NCBI GenBank assembly: GCA_003141555.1
Contig: PLMN01000011.1
Span: forward strand, 1 to 64,000
Length of the DNA: 64,000 nucleotides
Source: Candidatus Aminicenantota bacterium
Lineage (GTDB): Bacteria; Acidobacteriota; Aminicenantia; Aminicenantales; UBA4085
Direction: 5' to 3'
The position numbers and the translations under genes were made by a program. Shown piece by piece: positions 1,376 to 11,550 of the stretch (its first letter is position 1; each line of letters begins with the position of its first letter). Below the pieces are notes generated by a model. The model was not told the origin of the DNA, searched no databases, and worked only from the letters and a program-made list of their open reading frames with translations.

Positions 1376-1418
1376 CGCCTTCCTCTCCCACGGGGAATCC
1401 GGCGGACGCCGCCGCCGG

Positions 1419-4400
1419 TCAAAAGTCCCCGCGGCCTCCCGCCAAGGGGGTCGGCGCAGGCGCGCCCGTGAGCTTGAGGGCCGGGATCTTCCACCCCGCG
1501 ACCGACCCGTTGAAGGCCGGGACACCCTTGTCGATCAGCGCCCGGAAGGCGATCTGAACGTCCTGCAGCTCCTTTTCGAGGTCGGCGACCAGGCCGACCG
1601 CGGTCTCGGTCGGGCCGAAATCGGCGCTGCCGGCGGTATCTCCCCCGCCCGTGCCGATCACCTGGTTGAGCCACAGGAAATTCATGTAAACCTTATAGGC
1701 CTCGACGAAATATTTATCGTCGCTCAGCGCTTCGGAGCGCGAGATCAGCCGGTATTCGACATCCTGAATCTTCTTGTCGAAATCGTCGAGCGCCCGGATA
1801 ATGGGACTCTTGCCGGTCTGGCCGACGAGCGGCTTGCGGGCATCCTCGAGCTGCTTGCGCAGCCACTCCATCTGGTTGACCATGTCGGACGTCAGGCTGA
1901 TGTCGTCCCGGACGCGGAGCTGGAGCTTGACCGAGGCCAGGATGTCGGCTTCGGTGCCTGCGTTCTTGGGAGCCCGCAGCAAGGACAGCGGCTGGGCGGA
2001 GGCCTGTCCATCGAACGTCAACCGGACGGTATAGGTCCCCGGCGCCGCGATCGGCCCGCCCTGGCCCTGGGAGACGCCCCAGTGGGTGATGGGTCGGGTC
2101 ACGGCGTTCTGGAAGCGCGGTTCCTCCCAGATGTGCGGGTTCTGGGGCGGCGTCGTCCGGAGCGCGACATAGCGAGGCGGATCGAGGCGCAGGTCCCAGG
2201 AAGCGCGGTTGAGGCCCGCCCGGCCGGTGACCGGGGCGAGCTTGCCCAAGACCGTGCCGTTAGCGTCCAGAATCTCGATCTGGACGGGATCCTTAGGCGC
2301 TGCCTTCAGGACGAAATCCAGCTGGGCGCGGCCGCCGCGGACCAGCCGGTAGGCGGGTCGCGGGGCGACCAGCATCACGGCCCCGGCGTCCGACGCGCCT
2401 TCCATCCGGCCTTGTTCGAGCGGGGTGATGTTCTCCATGATGTAGAGACCGCGGCCGTAGGTCGAGACGACGAGGTCGTGGGTCTGCTTCTGGACTACGA
2501 TCCACGACACCGGCGCGGGCGGCAGGCCGTCCTTCAGCGGCTTCCAGGTCGCCCCCTCATCGAGGCTGTAGTAGAGGGCGTTGCCCGTCCCGGCAAAGAG
2601 CATCCCCTGCTTGTTGGGGTTCTCGGCCACGACCCGGGCGTAGGCTAGCGGGTGCCCGGTGGGCAGGTTCCCGGTGATCTTGGTCCACGTCCTGCCGAAG
2701 TCCGCGGTTTTGAAGATCCAGGGGTCGCGGTTGTCCATGAGGTGGAGGTCTACGACGACGTACGCCGTCGCGGCATCAAAATGGGACGGTTCTATTTTCG
2801 AGATCGTCCCGAGCGGCGGCACGCCCTTGATGTTCGCCGTGACGTCGTTCCACTTCGCCCCGGCGTCGTCCGTGTACCAGATCTTGCCGTCGTTCGTGCC
2901 GGCCCAAATGAGGCCCTTCTTGATCTCGGACGGGGCGATGGCGAAGACGACCTCGCCGTAGAACTGGCCGAGGTTGTCGCCCACGATCCCGCCCGAGGAG
3001 ACGATGTAGCGCGGGTCGCGAGTCGAGAGGTCGGGGCTGATAATGCTCCAGCTCGAGCCACCGTTCGTCGTCCGGAAGACGAATTGGGTGCCGTAGTAGA
3101 CCGTATTGTGGTCGAATGGGTCGATGGCCAGGGGCGGCGTCCAATGGGCCCGGTACTTGGCCTTGTTCGGTTCGGAGTCGAGCGTCCGCAGCCAGGGGCT
3201 CACCGAGCGGGCGAGCTTGGTCCTGTAGTCGTAGCGGGTGACCTCGTTGCCGTAGCAGGTCGCCCAGATGATGTCGGAGTCGGTCGGGTCGGGGATGGTG
3301 AAGCCCGATTCGCAGCCGCCGATCCCGTGATCCCAGACGCCGGTCGCCCCGCCGCGGAAGCCGCCGGCCGCGGCGCCGGGCGCGGCCTCGGGCGTCGTGC
3401 TGAGGCCGCGCATCGTCCCGTCGTCCTGCATGTTGCTGTAGATGCGGTACGGGATGTCGTTGTCCACGGCCACGTGGTACATCTGCCCGATGGGCAGGGT
3501 GATGCGCCGCCCGGTCTTGCCGTGGTCGGAGGTCATGTACATCCCGCCGTCATCGGTCACCAGGATCCGGTCGGCGTTCGCCGGATCGATCCAGATGTCG
3601 TGCGTGTCGCCGCCCCAGGGCAGCGTCCGGAAGGACTTGCCGCCGTCGAGCGACTGGTGGAAGCTGCTGTTGGCCACCAGCACCTCATCCGGGTTGGCCG
3701 GCGACACCGCCAGCCGGATGTAGTAGCCGGCCCGGCCGATGAGAGCCCGCTGCCAGCTCCCAACCTTCCAGGTCTCGCCGCCGTCGTCCGAGCGCCAGAT
3801 CGAGCCCTGGTCCGCGGTCTGGATCAAAGCGTAGACGCGCTTGGAGTCCTTGGCCGCCACGGCCACGTCGATCTTGCCCAGGGGCGGCTTGGGCAGCCCG
3901 CGGCCCTCGAGCTTTTTCCAGGTCGTGCCGCCGTCGCGCGAGATATACAACCCGCTGCCCGGGCCGCCGCTGAACATGGCGTAGGTGTGCATCTCGACCT
4001 GCCACATCCCGGCGAACAGGATCTGGGGATTGTTCGGATCCATGGCCAGACCGGAACAGCCGGTGTTGGCGTCGACGAACAGCACCCGGCTCCAGGTCTT
4101 GCCGCCGTCGATCGAGCGGTAGACGCCCCGCTCCTGCTGGGGGCCGGTCAGGCGGCCCAGGGCGGCGGCGAAGACGATGTCGGGATTCGTCGGGTGGACC
4201 ACGATCCGGCCGATCCGGCCGGTCTCCTCGAGACCCGAGCGGGCCCAGGTCTTGCCGGCGTCGACGGACTTGTAGATCCCGTCGCCCATCATGTCGACGT
4301 CGCGGACGGCCCAGGCTTCGCCCGTGCCCGCCCAAACGACGCTCGGGTTGGACGGCGTGACGGCCAAGGCGCCGATCGCCGCGGCCGTAATATCGTCCGA

Positions 4401-4667
4401 AACCGCGCTCCAGCGGACCCCGCCGTCCGTGGACTTCCAGACGCCGCCCGAAGCGGCTCCGGCGTAATACGTGTTCGCCTCGCCGGGCACCCCGGCCGCG
4501 GCCGAGATGCGGTTGCCCACGGCGGGCCCCATGAACCGGAAGCGGAGACTTTCGGGTTGACCGCCTCCCGGTCCGCCGCCCCGCTGGGCGAGCCCGAGGC
4601 CGAGGGCGAGCCCCAGCTCGAGGAGAATCGTGACGAGGAGAATCAGGCATCGATGGGTCTTGGACAT
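1419..4667 (-). CDS. Large exported Asp-box (BNR/VPS10-sortilin-like) beta-propeller protein
   Basis: A 1082-residue protein with an N-terminal signal peptide (MSKTHRCLILLVTILLELGL) and at least ten Asp-box motifs of the type SxDGGxTW (for example STDGGVRW, SIDGGKTW, SRDGGTTW, SDDGGETW), the mark of sialidase/sortilin beta-propellers. After about residue 720 the repeats stop and a beta-sandwich-like region and a short charged helical segment (around LRKQLEDARK) follow. Catalytic sialidase residues are not evident, so a glycan- or protein-binding exported factor is as likely as a hydrolase. ATG 4667 has GGGAGGGA 6 nt upstream; the in-frame GTG at 4700 lacks a signal-like start. It follows the 56-residue gene by 29 nt. 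Confidence 0.85.
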   Translation of the reverse strand: MSKTHRCLILLVTILLELGLALGLGLAQRGGGPGGGQPESLRFRFMGPAVGNRISAAAGVPGEANTYYAGAASGGVWKSTDGGVRWSAVSDDITAAAIGALAVTPSNPSVVWAGTGEAWAVRDVDMMGDGIYKSVDAGKTWARSGLEETGRIGRIVVHPTNPDIVFAAALGRLTGPQQERGVYRSIDGGKTWSRVLFVDANTGCSGLAMDPNNPQILFAGMWQVEMHTYAMFSGGPGSGLYISRDGGTTWKKLEGRGLPKPPLGKIDVAVAAKDSKRVYALIQTADQGSIWRSDDGGETWKVGSWQRALIGRAGYYIRLAVSPANPDEVLVANSSFHQSLDGGKSFRTLPWGGDTHDIWIDPANADRILVTDDGGMYMTSDHGKTGRRITLPIGQMYHVAVDNDIPYRIYSNMQDDGTMRGLSTTPEAAPGAAAGGFRGGATGVWDHGIGGCESGFTIPDPTDSDIIWATCYGNEVTRYDYRTKLARSVSPWLRTLDSEPNKAKYRAHWTPPLAIDPFDHNTVYYGTQFVFRTTNGGSSWSIISPDLSTRDPRYIVSSGGIVGDNLGQFYGEVVFAIAPSEIKKGLIWAGTNDGKIWYTDDAGAKWNDVTANIKGVPPLGTISKIEPSHFDAATAYVVVDLHLMDNRDPWIFKTADFGRTWTKITGNLPTGHPLAYARVVAENPNKQGMLFAGTGNALYYSLDEGATWKPLKDGLPPAPVSWIVVQKQTHDLVVSTYGRGLYIMENITPLEQGRMEGASDAGAVMLVAPRPAYRLVRGGRAQLDFVLKAAPKDPVQIEILDANGTVLGKLAPVTGRAGLNRASWDLRLDPPRYVALRTTPPQNPHIWEEPRFQNAVTRPITHWGVSQGQGGPIAAPGTYTVRLTFDGQASAQPLSLLRAPKNAGTEADILASVKLQLRVRDDISLTSDMVNQMEWLRKQLEDARKPLVGQTGKSPIIRALDDFDKKIQDVEYRLISRSEALSDDKYFVEAYKVYMNFLWLNQVIGTGGGDTAGSADFGPTETAVGLVADLEKELQDVQIAFRALIDKGVPAFNGSVAGWKIPALKLTGAPAPTPLAGGRGDF

Positions 4668-4696
4668 GCATTCCCTCCCGCGCGCAGCGCGCACGC

Positions 4697-4867
4697 TCAC
4701 TTTTTCTTGAAGCTGACGGCCAGGCTGCTCCCCTCGGCCGCCATGCTTGTTTCGAAATCCGGAAGGCCCTTCATATAGTCGTAGTAGCCGGCGTTCCCCC
4801 CGCCGAAGGACCGGCCCCGGGGCGAGATGTTGTGGGCGGCCAGAAGTGCCGGCGCCGTTCTTTTCAT
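4697..4867 (-). CDS. Small protein of unknown function (56 aa)
   Basis: A 56-residue frame starting MKRTAPALLAAHN and ending in VSFKKK, preceded by AAGGAG 7 nt before the ATG. It lies 14 nt downstream of the SRPBCC gene and 29 nt upstream of the Asp-box gene, on the same strand, so it fits within one operon. It has a Gly/Tyr-rich middle (GGGNAGYYDYMKG) and no clear membrane segment. I do not recognise a family; it could be the tail of a degraded larger gene. Confidence 0.45.
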   Translation of the reverse strand: MKRTAPALLAAHNISPRGRSFGGGNAGYYDYMKGLPDFETSMAAEGSSLAVSFKKK

Positions 4868-4881
4868 GGAATCTCCTTGAT

Positions 4882-5907
4882 TCAGCCGAAGACCGTGTAC
4901 CGGCCCCGCTCCATGACGAGCTTCAGCCGCAAGGCGCGGACCTGGAAAAAGACAATGGCCGCCGCCAGGAAAGCCAGGCCGAAGATGAGGAAGGCGTCGT
5001 GGGCATAGATCAGCACGAGGTCGGCGTAGATCCAGAATCCGGCGATAAGCGCCCATCCGCGCCGGCCGAAGGCGCGGAAGCCCGCGACGATCAGAGAGAT
5101 CGCCGTGAACCCGACCAGGGCGGAGAGGAGGGCCTTGGCCAGGATCGCGATCGCCAGGGCATAAAGGGCGGGGAGAAGGATCCAGAGCTTTTTCCGGGGC
5201 CGGGTCACGATGATCATCGCCCCGATGAAGGCCGCCAGGAGAAACCCGAGACCGGCCGGGGCCGACAGCAGCCGCATCGACTCGGGACGCCCCTCGGCGA
5301 GCCGCTTGATCTCGACCATCATCCGCTTCTCCATCGTGAAATGGATGGGATCGAAGAAGAGGCCGAGCAGCATCTTGGCGATGGGCTCCGCCGGATTGCC
5401 GCGGCTGCGGATGAGAAACCGCGTCCGGGCGGCGCCTGCGGGCTCGAGGACGAACGGTCCCCAGCCCGGATCGAGGTACATCATGCGGCTTTCGGCCAGG
5501 ACGTCGAACCGCCACCCGTTGACGCCCGGCTTGGGGGCGCCGAACTGGAACGAGCGGACGAATTCCCCCGCGGCGCGGACCGGGACCGCCGGGTCGAGGA
5601 TTTCGTTGTTATGGATCCCGGAGAGGAAGAGGTTTTCGAGCCAGTCGTAGCTGTAGAAGCCCCCCTGGCCGATGCCGAGACGGGCGAGCCAGGGCCAGAC
5701 TTTTTCGAGCGGAGCGTCGATCGTAATCGCGCGCGTGCACTGGTAGCCGAAGACGGGATTGCGCTCGTCGCCGGGCAGGGCGCGGGCCGTCTCGGCGTCC
5801 GTCGCCCCCCAGCGCAGGAAGCCCGGCCGGATTGCGGCGAAATATAGGACGATCCAGGCGGCCAGGAGCCCGAGCGCGATGACGATGAAGGGCTTTGGGC
5901 GCCTCAT
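4882..5907 (-). CDS. SRPBCC-family membrane protein
   Basis: A 341-residue protein with an N-terminal anchor helix (FIVIALGLLAAWIVLYFAAI), then a soluble START/SRPBCC-like domain at about residues 50-210 (core ITIDAPLEKVWPWLARLG, with GGFYSYDWLENL), then several C-terminal transmembrane helices. The soluble domain is of the kind that binds hydrophobic ligands; the role is unknown. Its ATG overlaps the stop of the dut-like remnant (ATGA at 5904-5907). Confidence 0.75.
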   Translation of the reverse strand: MRRPKPFIVIALGLLAAWIVLYFAAIRPGFLRWGATDAETARALPGDERNPVFGYQCTRAITIDAPLEKVWPWLARLGIGQGGFYSYDWLENLFLSGIHNNEILDPAVPVRAAGEFVRSFQFGAPKPGVNGWRFDVLAESRMMYLDPGWGPFVLEPAGAARTRFLIRSRGNPAEPIAKMLLGLFFDPIHFTMEKRMMVEIKRLAEGRPESMRLLSAPAGLGFLLAAFIGAMIIVTRPRKKLWILLPALYALAIAILAKALLSALVGFTAISLIVAGFRAFGRRGWALIAGFWIYADLVLIYAHDAFLIFGLAFLAAAIVFFQVRALRLKLVMERGRYTVFG

Positions 5908-6011
5908 CCGGACAGCCCTATCCGGCCGAAGCCGCCTTTGCCGCTCGACGCTTTATCTCGCAAATCGGCCTCGACGAGCTTGTCGATCTCTCGAGAGGCC
6001 AAGCCATTCAT
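5904..6011 (-). pseudogene. dut 3'-end remnant (35-codon frame with dUTPase motif V)
   Basis: A 35-codon frame whose C-terminal half (VEADLRDKASSGKGGFGRIG) aligns with the end of the intact dUTPase encoded at 8083-8505 (VEADSLDDTPRGEGGFGSTG). The DNA at 5928-5977 matches 8104-8153 at 40 of 50 positions without gaps, including an identical 15-mer AATCGGCCTCGACGA. Similarity fades before the local ATG. A good ribosome site (GGAGGA) precedes it and the stop overlaps the next start (ATGA), so the fragment may still be translated as a leader for the SRPBCC gene. The best reading is a displaced or duplicated dut tail. Confidence 0.55.
5928..5977. repeat. Direct repeat, left copy (dut 3'-end sequence)
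   Basis: Left member of a 50 bp direct repeat (40/50 identical to 8104-8153) that brackets the aminotransferase-nucleotidyltransferase pair. The identical core is at 5963-5977. Confidence 0.7.
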
Positions 6012-6124
6012 CGCGTTCCTCCGATCCCGCGGCGCGGCGCCCCGGGAAAGATGAAATTCATATCACAAAACGGGATGTTTTAAAACGCGGCCGGAGCGCC
6101 TCCGGCGAATCCCGAGGTTATGCG

Positions 6125-6154
6125 TTGAATTGGGAGGGCATAATGCGATATCAT
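6125..6154 (+). promoter_or_regulatory. Candidate sigma70-type promoter for the phosphonate-type operon
   Basis: TTGAAT at 6125-6130, an 18 nt spacer, and TATCAT at 6149-6154. The predicted start near 6161 leaves a leader of about 70 nt containing a short TTCCGG/CCGGAA hairpin. Confidence 0.45.
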
Positions 6155-6230
6155 TTGGGGACTAAGGAACCGCTTATTTCCGGCGGATTCCGGAATCTCG
6201 CAAAACGTCATGTCTGACTGAGAGAACGCC

Positions 6231-7319
6231 ATGGACAAGAACAAGGAATTCTATATCTTTACGCCCGGCCCCGTGAAGATGCCCGACTACGTCCTCGAGG
6301 AAGGAAGAAGGCAGCTCCCCTATTTCCGGACGGACGACTTTTCCCGGCTGGCCTTGGAATCCCAGGAGATGATCCTGGAGCTCGTAAAGGCCGGGCCCGA
6401 TTTCAAAGTGATCTACATGGCGGCCTCCGGCACCGGGGTCATGGAGGCCGTGGTCCTGAACCTCCTGTCCAAGACCGAAACGGCGCTCGTCATCAACGGG
6501 GGGACGTTCGGCCAGCGGTTCGTCGATCTGTGCCGCGTCCTCTCCGTGCCGTGCTTCGAGCACAAGCTCCCCTACGGCGAGCCGCTCGAAACCGCCGCGA
6601 TCGCGGCGGGCGGGGCGCGGTCCGCGACGATGCTGATTAACGGCCATGAGACGTCGACGGGCGTCCTGTTCGACATCGCTCGTACGGGGGAGTACTGTTC
6701 GAAGAACGGCCTGATGCACGTCGTGGACGCCATCAGCATGTTCCTCACGGACGAGATCGACATGCTCAAGATGAACATCGACGCCCTCATCCTGAGCTCC
6801 CAAAAGGGCCTGGCCCTGGCCCCGGGCCTCGGCCTCCTCGTCCTCTCGCCGCGCGCCCAGGAGAAAATCCGGGAGAGCGCCGCCCGCCTCGGCTCGCTGT
6901 ACTTCCGGCTCGCCGACTATTTGAACGACATGGCCCGGGGGCAGAATCCGTACACCCCCCCGCTCTCGGTCATGTTCCAGATGTATGCGCGACTGAAGCA
7001 CATCCGGGCCCACGGAGGCGCGGCCGCGGAAATCCGTCGGGCCCAAAGGGTCGCCGCCTACTTCCGGGCCCATATCCAGGGGCTGCCGCTGGCCGTCTTC
7101 TCCAAGTCCCCGCCGAACGCGATGACGTCGCTGTCCCCGACCGACGGCCGCTTGGCCCACCGCATCGTCAAGGACATCGAGGACCGGTACAACATTTTCG
7201 TCTGCCCGAATGGCGGGGAGCTCAGGGACAAGGTCTTCCGGGTCTCCCATATGGGCGACATCGACGAGGCGTATACGGATGTCCTGATCCGGGCGCTTCA
7301 GGACTATTATTCTCGCTAG
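6231..7319 (+). CDS. PLP aminotransferase, 2-aminoethylphosphonate-pyruvate transaminase-like
   Basis: A 362-residue class V aminotransferase (fold type I). It opens with FTPGPVKMPDYV, the phosphate/product loop of PhnW and serine/alanine-glyoxylate transaminases. D166 (VVDAIS) should pair with the PLP ring nitrogen and K192 (LSSQKGLALAPG) should form the Schiff base. PhnW interconverts 2-aminoethylphosphonate and phosphonoacetaldehyde. The link to phosphonate chemistry rests on the neighbour 10 nt downstream, a CMP-transferase-like protein; fused or adjacent pairs of this kind activate 2-aminoethylphosphonate for attachment to lipids or glycans. No phosphonatase or PEP mutase is in the window. 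Another amino-group acceptor is possible. Confidence 0.7.
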   Translation: MDKNKEFYIFTPGPVKMPDYVLEEGRRQLPYFRTDDFSRLALESQEMILELVKAGPDFKVIYMAASGTGVMEAVVLNLLSKTETALVINGGTFGQRFVDLCRVLSVPCFEHKLPYGEPLETAAIAAGGARSATMLINGHETSTGVLFDIARTGEYCSKNGLMHVVDAISMFLTDEIDMLKMNIDALILSSQKGLALAPGLGLLVLSPRAQEKIRESAARLGSLYFRLADYLNDMARGQNPYTPPLSVMFQMYARLKHIRAHGGAAAEIRRAQRVAAYFRAHIQGLPLAVFSKSPPNAMTSLSPTDGRLAHRIVKDIEDRYNIFVCPNGGELRDKVFRVSHMGDIDEAYTDVLIRALQDYYSR

Positions 7320-7329
7320 GGGAGCTATC

Positions 7330-8046
7330 ATGAAAATCATCATCATGGCCGCCGGCCGGGGAACGAGGATCAGCCGCCACATCCAGGGCCGGCCCAAATG
7401 CACGATCGACATCGACGGCCGGCCGCTCATCGCCCGGACGTTCAAGATCCTGTCCGAATTCCCCGGCACGGACATCGCGATCGTCACGGGCTACAATGAA
7501 CAGGCCGTCATCGAGGCGATCGGCCGTCACACGTACACGAAATTCCTGAATCCCTTCTTCGATGTGACGAATTCCATCGCTTCCCTCTGGTTCGCCCGGG
7601 AGTTCATCCCGGCCGACGACGACCTCATCGTCATGAACGGCGACCTCTTTTTCGAGAAGAAGGTCATGGAAACGCTGTACGCGGAAGCCCGGTCTCCGGT
7701 GATGCTGGCCGACAGCTCGCGGATCAAGGAGGCGGACTACCGCTTCAAGTGGTCGGGCGATGTCCTCCAGAAATACGGCAAGGACCTGTCGAACGATGAA
7801 ACCACGGGAGAATACGTCGGCTTGGCCAAGATCAGTCGCACCTCGATTCCGGCCTTCCGGCAAAGGATGCACGAGCTGATCGACGCCCAGGCGCACGGGA
7901 AATGGTGGGAGGACATCCTCTATTCCTGGGTTCCAGAGGGCCACAGCGTCTTCGTGAAGGACGTGAAGGGGCTGTTCTGGGGCGAGGTGGACTACATCGA
8001 GGACATCGAGCGGCTCCGGGCGGAGGCGAAGCACCGCGGTTTGTGA
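7330..8046 (+). CDS. Sugar/choline-phosphate-type nucleotidyltransferase (PntC/LicC-like)
   Basis: A 238-residue Rossmann-like NTP transferase. The N-terminus has the nucleotide-binding loop IIMAAGRGTRISRH with GRPKC in place of the usual KPK-type lysine motif; NGDLFF (about residue 105) and EVDYIED near the C-terminus supply metal-binding acidic residues. The length and lack of a left-handed helix domain fit phosphocholine or 2-aminoethylphosphonate cytidylyltransferases rather than glucose-1-phosphate enzymes. It starts 10 nt after the aminotransferase and has GGGAGC as ribosome site, so the two are one operon. CMP-aminoethylphosphonate formation is an inference from this pairing. Confidence 0.7.
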   Translation: MKIIIMAAGRGTRISRHIQGRPKCTIDIDGRPLIARTFKILSEFPGTDIAIVTGYNEQAVIEAIGRHTYTKFLNPFFDVTNSIASLWFAREFIPADDDLIVMNGDLFFEKKVMETLYAEARSPVMLADSSRIKEADYRFKWSGDVLQKYGKDLSNDETTGEYVGLAKISRTSIPAFRQRMHELIDAQAHGKWWEDILYSWVPEGHSVFVKDVKGLFWGEVDYIEDIERLRAEAKHRGL

Positions 8047-8082
8047 ATCGCCGGCCCGGGGGCGATGCCCCGCCGCGCGGGG

Positions 8083-8505
8083 CTAGAAAAGCCCCGTGCT
8101 CCCGAAGCCGCCTTCCCCGCGCGGCGTGTCATCGAGCGAATCGGCCTCGACGATCTCCGCCTCACGGACGGGCTGGATGAGCATCTGGGCGATCTTCATG
8201 CCCGCCTTGATCTCGTACGGCTCGCGCCCAAGGTTGATCATCACCACCCGGACTTCGCCCCGATAGCCCGCATCGACGACCCCGGCCAGCTTGTGGACGC
8301 CCTTGAGCGAGATGCCGCTCTTGTCCCAGATCAGGCCGACGAACCCGCGCGGGATGGCCAGGGCGATGCCCGTAGGGACGGGCTTGACCTCGCCCGGGCC
8401 GAGGGTGAGGCCGGCGGAGGCGAACAGATCGAACCCGGCGTCGCCGGGATGGACATGGACGGGGAGCTTGGCGTCCGGAGAGAGCCGCTTGACCTTGAGT
8501 TCCAT
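8083..8505 (-). CDS. dut: dUTP diphosphatase
   Basis: A 140-residue trimeric-type dUTPase hydrolysing dUTP to dUMP and diphosphate. Motif I is DAGFDLFA; motif II is DKSG, where RSG is more usual; motif III GVVDAGYRGE carries the catalytic Asp; motif V is RGEGGFGSTG. ATG 8505 is chosen because AAAGGGG precedes it and the family begins MELKVKRL; the longer frame to 8538 would overlap the upstream nrdG. Its last 50 bases are repeated at 5928-5977. Confidence 0.93.
   Translation of the reverse strand: MELKVKRLSPDAKLPVHVHPGDAGFDLFASAGLTLGPGEVKPVPTGIALAIPRGFVGLIWDKSGISLKGVHKLAGVVDAGYRGEVRVVMINLGREPYEIKAGMKIAQMLIQPVREAEIVEADSLDDTPRGEGGFGSTGLF
8104..8153. repeat. Direct repeat, right copy (inside the dut 3' end)
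   Basis: Right member of the 50 bp direct repeat described at 5928-5977; the identical 15 bp core is 8139-8153. Both copies have the same orientation and are 2176 bp apart. Confidence 0.7.
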
Positions 8506-8521
8506 GGCGTCCCCTTTCCTT

Positions 8522-9220
8522 TCAAATCCCCTCGACACGGACCTCGCCGAAATGGGGCTGGGCGATCGCGGCCATCTCCAGGATCTCGCCCCGGCCGTAG
8601 GGCTTGACCTTCGCCATCTCGGGATCGAGGGTATTGAAGGGCGAAAAGGCCTGGATCTGGTAGACCGGCGCCCCGCTCAGGAGACGGGCGATGGACCGGA
8701 CATCCTCCGCCCCGACCAGGCCCGGGACGACCGTGGTTCGGAAGAGGGTGGCGATGCCGGTTTCGCGGATGAGGTCGAGGGTGCGCCCGATGTCCTCGAA
8801 TACGGCCGGGGAGCGGGTCACCTCGCCGTAGCGGTCGGGGGCGGCCTTGATGTCGAAGGCCAGACGGTCGACGAGCTTCTCCCGGATGAGATCCGCCAGG
8901 CGGCCGGGCTCCGAGCCGTTGGTATCGATCTTCACCATCAGATCCCGCCCCTTGATGACGGTCAGCAGGTCCTCGAGCCCGGGGGCGAGGAGCGGCTCCC
9001 CGCCCGACACGCAGATCCCCTCGAGCCAGCCCTTCCGGGCGTCGAGGTAGGCCAGGAAAAAGTCGGGCGGGATGTCGGCGAGCGTCCCGGGGCGGAGGAT
9101 GAGGTCGGGGTTATGGCAGTAGGGGCAGCGGAAGTTGCAACCGGCCACGAAGACCGTCGAAGCGATGAACCCGGGAAAGTCCTTGGGAGCGAACTTCTCT
9201 AGCCCCTTGAGCTCAACCAC
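8522..9220 (-). CDS. nrdG: Radical SAM activase of anaerobic ribonucleotide reductase
   Basis: A 232-residue radical SAM protein with the cluster motif C28-N-F-R-C32-P-Y-C35 and the SAM-binding GGEP (CVSGGEPLL). It generates the glycyl radical on NrdD. The GTG at 9220 is chosen because it is preceded by AGGAG and lies inside the 3' end of the redoxin gene, a 23 bp overlap typical of coupled translation; the open frame extends further but the upstream part is the redoxin gene in another frame. Operon order is nrdD, redoxin, nrdG, then dut. Confidence 0.88.
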   Translation of the reverse strand: MVELKGLEKFAPKDFPGFIASTVFVAGCNFRCPYCHNPDLILRPGTLADIPPDFFLAYLDARKGWLEGICVSGGEPLLAPGLEDLLTVIKGRDLMVKIDTNGSEPGRLADLIREKLVDRLAFDIKAAPDRYGEVTRSPAVFEDIGRTLDLIRETGIATLFRTTVVPGLVGAEDVRSIARLLSGAPVYQIQAFSPFNTLDPEMAKVKPYGRGEILEMAAIAQPHFGEVRVEGI

Positions 9221-9465
9221 GCCTCGAGCTCCTGCCGGGTGTTGATGACCGCCGCCACCGCGCCGTTCTCCCGGAGGACGAGCGTGGGGAGGATGATCGA
9301 GCCCTTGTCGTCCCGCTTGACGTAAGGCAGGAACTCCCGGATCCTCATCCGGCCGGCCTTCTCCTCGACCTTGAACTTCGCGGGCTCGATGGTCCGCTCC
9401 CGAAGGCAGGCCTCGAGGTCCGCGCACCTCGGACAATTCGGGTAAGTGAAGAGCAGGTAGTCCAT
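9199..9465 (-). CDS. Glutaredoxin/NrdH-like redoxin
   Basis: An 88-residue protein with the active-site motif C11-P-R-C14 in a thioredoxin-like start (YLLFTYPNCPRC) and a cis-Pro-type segment (ILPTLVL). It lies 9 nt downstream of nrdD and overlaps nrdG. In class III reductases that do not use formate, a redoxin supplies electrons, so this position suggests it reduces NrdD. Confidence 0.8.
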   Translation of the reverse strand: MDYLLFTYPNCPRCADLEACLRERTIEPAKFKVEEKAGRMRIREFLPYVKRDDKGSIILPTLVLRENGAVAAVINTRQELEAWLSSRG

Positions 9466-9474
9466 GGGACCCGG

Positions 9475-11550
9475 TCAGCCGAGCGCCACAAAGGGCGTGC
9501 GCTCTTTGAATTCCTGCTGCTTGCCGTCGTTCCAGGTCCGCACCGGCCGGAGGTAGCCCACGATCCGGGAATAGACCTCGGTCGCGGTCCCGCAGTCCGG
9601 GCAGGTGGGTTTCTGGCCGCGGAGGTAGCCGTGGTTCTCGCAGACGCTGAAGGTCGGCGTGATGCTGAAATACGGGATCCGGGTCGCGGCGATCTTCCGG
9701 ACGAGCTTGCGGCAGGTGTCGGCGTCGATCGCCTCGGGCAGGAAGGTGTGAAAGATCGTCCCCCCGGTGTACAGGCTCTGGATGTCCTCCTGGTGATTGA
9801 GAGCCTCGAAAACGTCCCGCGTGGCATCGACGTTGAGCTGGGTGGAGTTCGTGAGGTAGGGGTGCTTCTCCGTGCCGGCCGTGACGATGTTGTGGTACTT
9901 CTGCTTGTCAAGCCGAGCCAGGCGGTAGGAGGTGGACTCGGCCGGGGTCGCCTCGAGGTTGTAGAGGTTGCCCGTATCGTCCTGGTAGATTTTCAAAACG
10001 CTGCGCATGTATTCCAGGATCTCGATGGCGAACTCCTTGCCTTCGGCGGTGCCGATCCCCTTGCCCAGGAAGTTGAGGCAGGACTCGTGCATCCCGCAGA
10101 TGCCGATCGTCGAGAAGTGGTTGTTGAAGTGGCCGAGGTAGACCTGGGTATAGGGCATGATCCCCCGCCCGAGCATGGTGTTGACGATTTCGCGCTTGAC
10201 CTCGAGCGACTCCTTGGCCAGGTCCATGAGCTCCCGGAGCCGGGCCTTGTACTCGGCGCGGGTCTTGGAGGTATAGCCGATCCGGTTGAGGTTAATCGTG
10301 ACGACGCCGATCGAGCCCGTCGAGTCGCCCGGGCCCCAGATGTTGCCCGGCCGGCGCATGAGCTCCCGCTGGTCGAGGTTCAGGCGGCAGCACATGGCCC
10401 GGATGTCCCCCGGGCTCATGTTCGTCCCGATGTAGTTCTGGAAATAAGGGATGCCGTACTTGGCCGTGACCTCGAACAGGAGCCGGGCGTTGGGCGATTC
10501 CCAGTCGAAATCCTTGGTCAGGTTGTACGTCGGGATGGGGAAGGTGAAAACCCGGCCCTGGTGGTCGCCCTCGACCATGAGCTCAAGGAAGGCCCGGTTG
10601 ATGACGTCGACCTCGGCTTGGTAGTCGCCGTAGCACGTGTCGAGCTCCTGGCCGCCGACGACCACCCGCTTGTTCTTCATGTCCTCGGGAATGGTCCAGT
10701 CAAAGGTCAGGTTGGAGAAGGGCGTCTGCCAGCCCCAGCGCGAGGGGACGTTCAACCCGAAGACGAGCTTTTGGATGTCCTGCTTGACGTGCGCAAAATC
10801 GAGCTTGTCGTGCCGGACGAAAGGAGCGAGGAACGTGTCGACGCTGGAGAAGGCCTGGGCGCCGGCGAACTCGCCCTGCATCGTCCCGATGTAGTTCACC
10901 ATGTGCAGGGTCGCGGTCTCGAGGTGCTTGGCCGGGGCGGAGTGGACCTGGTTGGGCACGTGGCCGAAGCCGCGGCGGAGGAGGGCCTCGAGCGACCAGC
11001 CGGCGCAGTAGCCGACGATCGGGTAGGACAGGTCGTGGAGGTGGAAGTCGCCCTCCTGGTGGGCGTTTTTGACGTCCTCGGAATAGATCTGGTTGAGGGC
11101 GAAGCTCGAGAGGACCTCGCCCGAAACGCGGGCGTTCAGCCCGGAGAAGCTCATCGTCCCTTCGTTCGAGTTCTCCCGGATCTTCCAGTCGGCGTCGTTG
11201 ATATAGTCCTTGATCAGGCGCTCGAGGTTGACCCCGATCGTCCTGGCTTCGCGGATTTCCTTGTGCCGCTCGCGGTAGAGGATGTAGGACTTGGCCACGT
11301 CGTGGTACCCGCGGCGCATGAGGACCATCTCGACGATGTCCTGGACCTGCTCGACCGAGGGGATTGTGTAGCCGCCGAACTTTTCTTCGCAGACGTAGGT
11401 CACGATGTCCGAGACGGTCCTGGCGTCGCCGTTCATGGAGACGCCCTGCGAGGTCATGGCCTTGGCGATGGCGGTGGTGATCTTGTCCTGGGCGAAATCG
11501 ACGATGCTGCCGTCCCGCTTCCTGATCCGGGTAATGACGCGCGAATTCAT
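9475..11550 (-). CDS. nrdD: Anaerobic (class III) ribonucleoside-triphosphate reductase
   Basis: A 691-residue enzyme making deoxyribonucleotides without oxygen. The N-terminus is an ATP-cone (KRDGSIVDFAQDKITTAIAKA). The C-terminus has a zinc site from C637, H640, C650 and C653 and the glycyl radical loop RIVGY with the radical on G665. Family length is normal. ATG 11550 follows GGAGGAGGAG. It heads an operon with a redoxin and nrdG and has two NrdR boxes upstream, so dATP/ATP-responsive repression by NrdR is expected. Confidence 0.95.
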   Translation of the reverse strand: MNSRVITRIRKRDGSIVDFAQDKITTAIAKAMTSQGVSMNGDARTVSDIVTYVCEEKFGGYTIPSVEQVQDIVEMVLMRRGYHDVAKSYILYRERHKEIREARTIGVNLERLIKDYINDADWKIRENSNEGTMSFSGLNARVSGEVLSSFALNQIYSEDVKNAHQEGDFHLHDLSYPIVGYCAGWSLEALLRRGFGHVPNQVHSAPAKHLETATLHMVNYIGTMQGEFAGAQAFSSVDTFLAPFVRHDKLDFAHVKQDIQKLVFGLNVPSRWGWQTPFSNLTFDWTIPEDMKNKRVVVGGQELDTCYGDYQAEVDVINRAFLELMVEGDHQGRVFTFPIPTYNLTKDFDWESPNARLLFEVTAKYGIPYFQNYIGTNMSPGDIRAMCCRLNLDQRELMRRPGNIWGPGDSTGSIGVVTINLNRIGYTSKTRAEYKARLRELMDLAKESLEVKREIVNTMLGRGIMPYTQVYLGHFNNHFSTIGICGMHESCLNFLGKGIGTAEGKEFAIEILEYMRSVLKIYQDDTGNLYNLEATPAESTSYRLARLDKQKYHNIVTAGTEKHPYLTNSTQLNVDATRDVFEALNHQEDIQSLYTGGTIFHTFLPEAIDADTCRKLVRKIAATRIPYFSITPTFSVCENHGYLRGQKPTCPDCGTATEVYSRIVGYLRPVRTWNDGKQQEFKERTPFVALG

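Follow-up and report, generated by a model that had tools for sequence, protein, structure and literature searches.

Downstream of dut in a genome of Candidatus Aminicenantota (G000), two genes encoding an aminotransferase and a nucleotidyltransferase lie between the 3' end of dut and a second, degraded copy of that same end. The window analysed here is a stretch of 64,000 nt (contig PLMN01000011.1, positions 1 to 64,000). Insertion of the gene pair with a duplicated dut tail is well supported, because the repeat is real, empty sites are seen in two relatives, and the pair, with homologues in distant bacteria, was found in no other genome searched from the order and phylum. The pair and its dut scar are an ordinary gene-insertion event, and do not show dut to serve mobile elements as a docking site. 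They provide a clean, datable case of a small acquired pair placed beside a conserved gene with no visible mobile machinery; empty site, filled site and scar can all be seen.

The dut gene (8083–8505, minus strand) encodes a dUTP diphosphatase of 140 aa that is intact, including motif V (PF00692, E = 1.5e-30; TIGR00576 above cut-off). Direct sequence comparison reproduced exactly the 50-bp repeat that a sequence-only reading of this DNA had described: 40 of 50 positions are identical, ungapped, between 5928–5977 and 8104–8153, and the two copies have in common an identical 15-bp core, AATCGGCCTCGACGA. When extended, the repeat measures 67 nt at 76% identity (5914–5980 and 8090–8156, both on the minus strand), with a core at 5926–5980 that is 80% identical over 55 nt. 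The right copy is the 3' end of dut itself. The left copy, the orphan, lies 2.1 kb downstream of dut in the same orientation. As had been claimed, it is an orphan frame encoding motif V, here in degraded form (SGKGGFGRIG versus RGEGGFGSTG in dut; peptides KLVEADLRDKASSGKGGFGRIGLSG and EIVEADSLDDTPRGEGGFGSTGLF, respectively). When the final 100 bases of dut were searched against the whole 3.79-Mb genome, 5926–5980 was the sole second match (E = 1.8e-7, next 0.09), which confirms the orphan as the remnant of a dut 3' end.

Chance similarity or an assembly artefact might be suspected, given that the repeat is short and that the protein-level match of the orphan to dut, taken alone, is weak (E = 0.03). 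The genome-wide E value speaks against this, as does a comparison with 2000 dinucleotide-preserving shuffles of the 5908–6230 spacer, none of which reached the observed alignment score of 55 (shuffle maximum, 32). Moreover, the orphan sits at the very point at which dut terminates in the empty-site genomes, and collapse or duplication during assembly would not yield copies that are only 76–80% alike. Such an origin is thus exceedingly improbable. The second dut 3' end beside the gene pair is real, and chance is excluded for practical purposes.

The empty site is seen in G001, a member of the same genus, and in G005, of the same family. In both genomes, dut is followed directly by a homologue of the gene at 4882–5907 (minus strand; below, the 4885–5907 gene), with no pair between them and with one dut tail and one motif V each. 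The sequence-only reading had proposed, as a check, to look for relatives without the pair in which dut, with a single motif V, runs straight into the next gene; these two genomes are of that kind, and they bear out an insertion between dut and the 4885–5907 gene. The name given to the latter, SRPBCC, could not be retained, as its product has no Pfam or NCBIfam match. The spacer between dut and the next gene is 145 bp in G001 and 52 bp in G005, whereas the orphan abuts the 4885–5907 gene. The far junction is therefore an imperfect copy of the native junction. We looked in G000 for a counterpart of the G001 spacer and found none.

A different origin for the orphan would be a second full copy of dut, of which deletion, no later than the arrival of the pair, spared only the 3' end. 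The orphan has the orientation expected of such a remnant, and inspection indicates that the alignment, if one codon gap is allowed, could extend slightly upstream. However, the spacer yields a single alignment and no further dut remnant, and relatives have one dut at the locus, with nearly all of them carrying one copy in total. We consider this origin improbable.

The pair sits between the two repeat copies, as the sequence-only reading had it. Its first gene (6231–7319, plus strand) encodes a class V aminotransferase (PF00266, E = 4.4e-15; PDB 3f0h, E = 3.8e-87), and its second (7330–8046, plus strand) a MobA-like/LicC-like nucleotidyltransferase (PF12804, E = 2.2e-12), for which LicC is the best solved relative (PDB 1jyk, E = 1.4e-6). 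No orthologue of the aminotransferase was found in 58 other relatives, where matches are only paralogue-level (at most ∼33% identical, a 41% fragment excepted). Close homologues of the nucleotidyltransferase were absent from 94 genomes of the order and 347 of the phylum, and the pair itself was found in no other genome of the order or phylum that we searched. Side by side and with the gene order kept, homologues do occur in a Methylococcaceae MAG (49% and 51% identity) and in Fusobacterium vincentii (43% and 40%). Given this patchy distribution, the pair was probably acquired horizontally. Composition gives no sign of foreignness, GC3 of the pair being 0.87–0.89, like that of neighbouring genes. 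Scans of viral contigs with both proteins returned no relative, and nucleotidyltransferase matches in phage records were weak and mostly partial. The plasmid search yielded aminotransferase homologues of <60% identity, the best being on plasmid-labelled Fusobacterium (a 2.1-Mb record) and Ruminococcus records, and no donor of the pair. In the Methylococcaceae MAG (L051:1847–9633), the pair has as neighbours a protein that combines Mur-ligase domains with a weak match to Fic and, on the other side, one whose matches are receptor-L/leucine-rich and esterase-like (UPF0227), a cluster unfamiliar to us.

The pair had been called phosphonate-type. LicC-like enzymes can take phosphocholine or aminoethylphosphonate (PMC6697681), and a class V aminotransferase beside a LicC-like PF12804 nucleotidyltransferase recalls the combination of PntC/LicC cytidylyltransferase and AEP transaminase (PMC6697681). 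Unlike that system, the genome yields no PEP mutase that reaches its cut-off (31.5 bits for PF13714, where the best match scores 20.4), and neither protein of the pair passes an equivalog cut-off; the aminotransferase scores 156.8 bits against PhnW-AepZ, where 360.8 is needed. With the PEP mutase and aminotransferase scores below their cut-offs, the label is not supported as stated, and a phosphonate role would be a lead only, unproven as it stands. On the Ruminococcus albus plasmid pRUMAL01 (L074:6139–11909), a homologous aminotransferase adjoins a cytidyltransferase-family gene in a capsule-type cluster that also includes three LicD genes. Because this homologue sits among LicD and capsule genes, its neighbourhood suggests, by analogy, that the pair may participate in surface-glycan decoration.

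We then consider where the two dut ends came from. According to the sequence-only reading, the inserted DNA carried a dut end of its own, which took the place of the resident one. In a tree of dut bodies, G000 groups with G001 (96/91), and identity between the two is 83% over the body and 72% over the tail. Comparable tail drops are seen in G004–G007, G044–G052, G046–G052 and G052–G058, and the tail data do not reject a clade of G000 and G001 (AU p = 0.288). Of the tails compared, that of G000 itself comes closest to the orphan, with 51 of 69 positions identical compared to 35–47 for other tails; outside the 15-bp core this advantage is small (36 versus at most 35 of 54). Trees of the two dut tails, a further check proposed in the sequence-only reading, pair the orphan with the G000 tail (92/84), although this grouping, based on 69 columns, is not starred and not conclusive, and the alternative grouping with the G001 tail is not rejected (p = 0.333). 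Within the grouping, the orphan has the long branch (0.45 versus 0.11). Since the orphan is nearest its own genome's tail, the tail drop is ordinary and the G000+G001 tail clade is not rejected, duplication of the resident dut end is favoured over import of a foreign end, and the proposed displacement, though conceivable, is not supported.

A foreign end could have arrived by homology-assisted acquisition. Here, DNA of a relative, carrying dut and the pair, would have recombined inside dut and been joined illegitimately in the old tail, so that the orphan would be the original end and the end now on G000 dut the foreign one. Homology-facilitated illegitimate recombination is known (PMC3240628), and the process described there would generate the same layout without a recombinase. 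The G000 tail is also closer to that of G008 (80%) than to that of G001. Against this, the orphan does not group with the G001 tail, the tail test does not reject G000+G001, and no donor with dut beside the pair was found, since no order or phylum genome searched has the pair. We view this route as possible but doubtful.

Some integrative elements are known to give their target gene, be it a tRNA gene, dusA, guaA or another, a new 3' end. One feature of such elements is present at this locus, in that the insert lies between direct repeats of its target's 3' end, and, as in those elements, a complete gene is accompanied by a displaced 3' end in which the core is identical. An integrase-bearing element might accordingly have attached at the dut 3' end, supplied a replacement end and later shrunk to the pair; target gene, insert and displaced tail are in the order that this would leave, and the lower G000–G001 identity in the tail than in the body is in line with it. 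The wider survey points the other way. Our search covered tyrosine recombinases; none was found in or beside the insert, near dut in 39 genomes or on the contig of the window (C19), and 7 lie elsewhere in the genome. Among 20 relatives, the sequence downstream of dut showed no second tail (stretches of 0.2–17 kb, some ended by contig ends), and we found no recurrent use of the site, as a different insert at the same junction in G010 lacks a second tail. The G000 tail is not demonstrably foreign, and a literature search for dut as an attachment site returned nothing relevant. In having no such recombinase, no recurrence and no demonstrably imported tail, the locus differs from the known elements. 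We regard site-specific integration as unlikely, and the data lend no support to the suggestion that dut is an integration target. In a variant of this idea, the dut 3' end would be an attachment site for small recombinase-less cassettes mobilised in trans, with the pair as one such cassette that imported its dut end. Were dut a true docking site, an essential gene of nucleotide metabolism would join the known integration targets; the data do not point that way, and we hold this variant to be very unlikely.

The explanation that we put at slightly better than even is that an acquired pair was inserted without a recombinase, that dut's own 3' end was duplicated in the process, and that the decayed orphan possibly became a leader. 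In the ancestor, dut was followed directly by the 4885–5907 gene, as it is in G001 and G005. The pair was then inserted between these two genes in the opposite orientation, as the empty sites show, and beyond the insert a second copy of at least 55–70 bp of the dut 3' end was left behind. The mechanism was most likely recombinase-free, by a single crossover of circularised DNA carrying a 3' fragment of dut or, alternatively, by an illegitimate join that duplicated the dut end. The complete end stayed with dut under selection, and the orphan decayed.

In E. coli, DNA circles that carried the end fragment of a gene have, through a single crossover, produced partial gene duplications of 109–950 bp (PMC3240628). 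Like the present case, the crossovers at lacZ in that study placed the 3' part of one gene on both sides of the insert without a recombinase. Those lacZ duplications are recent, however, and the one described here is old and measures only about 55–70 bp. In a study of three species, 10–18% of small variable segments are flanked by direct repeats, and the segments are attributed largely to illegitimate recombination (PMC2884548). As at our locus, a short insert of non-mobile genes, edged by a direct repeat, interrupts a gene order that is otherwise conserved; the repeats there are mostly <30 bp, as opposed to 55–67 nt, diverged to 76–80%, at dut. Recombinase-free duplication of the resident end has its limits as an explanation: the mechanism is one that we infer, the duplicated stretch is shorter than those made experimentally, and no repeat arrangement marks the joining of the other end. 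The imperfect far junction and the tree grouping from 69 columns also count against it.

Divergence between the copies is 26% (51/69 identical), similar to the third-position divergence between G000 and G001 (31%); hence, an old event after the G000–G001 split needs no foreign tail. When the orphan is compared with the dut of its own genome, 3 of 14 changed codons are synonymous, versus 76 of 123 among functional tails (Fisher p = 0.008), a small sample in which the G000 tail was set against nine functional tails and the comparisons, all sharing G000, are not independent. Within the bounds of this small sample, the orphan is under relaxed selection and has lost the dUTPase constraint.

The orphan tail now forms the end of a 35-aa open frame (5904–6011, minus strand; MNGLASREIDKLVEADLRDKASSGKGGFGRIGLSG). 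We considered this frame as a known small protein and dropped the idea, as it has no Pfam match. GGAGG lies 6 nt before its ATG (frame 6011–5904), and its stop and the start codon of the gene that follows overlap as ATGA; the start of that gene at 5907 agrees with relatives. Given the good ribosome site and the overlap, a leader role is possible, and the frame may plausibly act through coupling as a translational leader of the 4885–5907 gene. A gene-end remnant may in this way gain a new use.

On the other side of dut, the order nrdD, small glutaredoxin-like protein, radical SAM protein, dut is conserved (window 8083–11550 and the dut loci of relatives). This block, conserved across the order, is apparently an anaerobic deoxynucleotide-supply operon.

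The downstream flank is far more variable. The distance from dut to a convergent MFS transporter is 67, 752, 3025, 3315, 4749, 6710 and 6920 bp in seven family members (L055, L057, L058, L060, L062, L063 and window 1376–8085), and the contents of the interval are mostly unrelated among them. In G010 (L062:8150–10260), a PadR-type regulator and a 307-aa protein without a Pfam match separate dut from the same downstream gene; this insertion is independent and has no second dut tail. With an interval that varies from 67 bp to 6.9 kb and the insert in G010, this flank of dut is, within the bacterial family, a spot of gene turnover, and an insertion beside dut is accordingly unremarkable.
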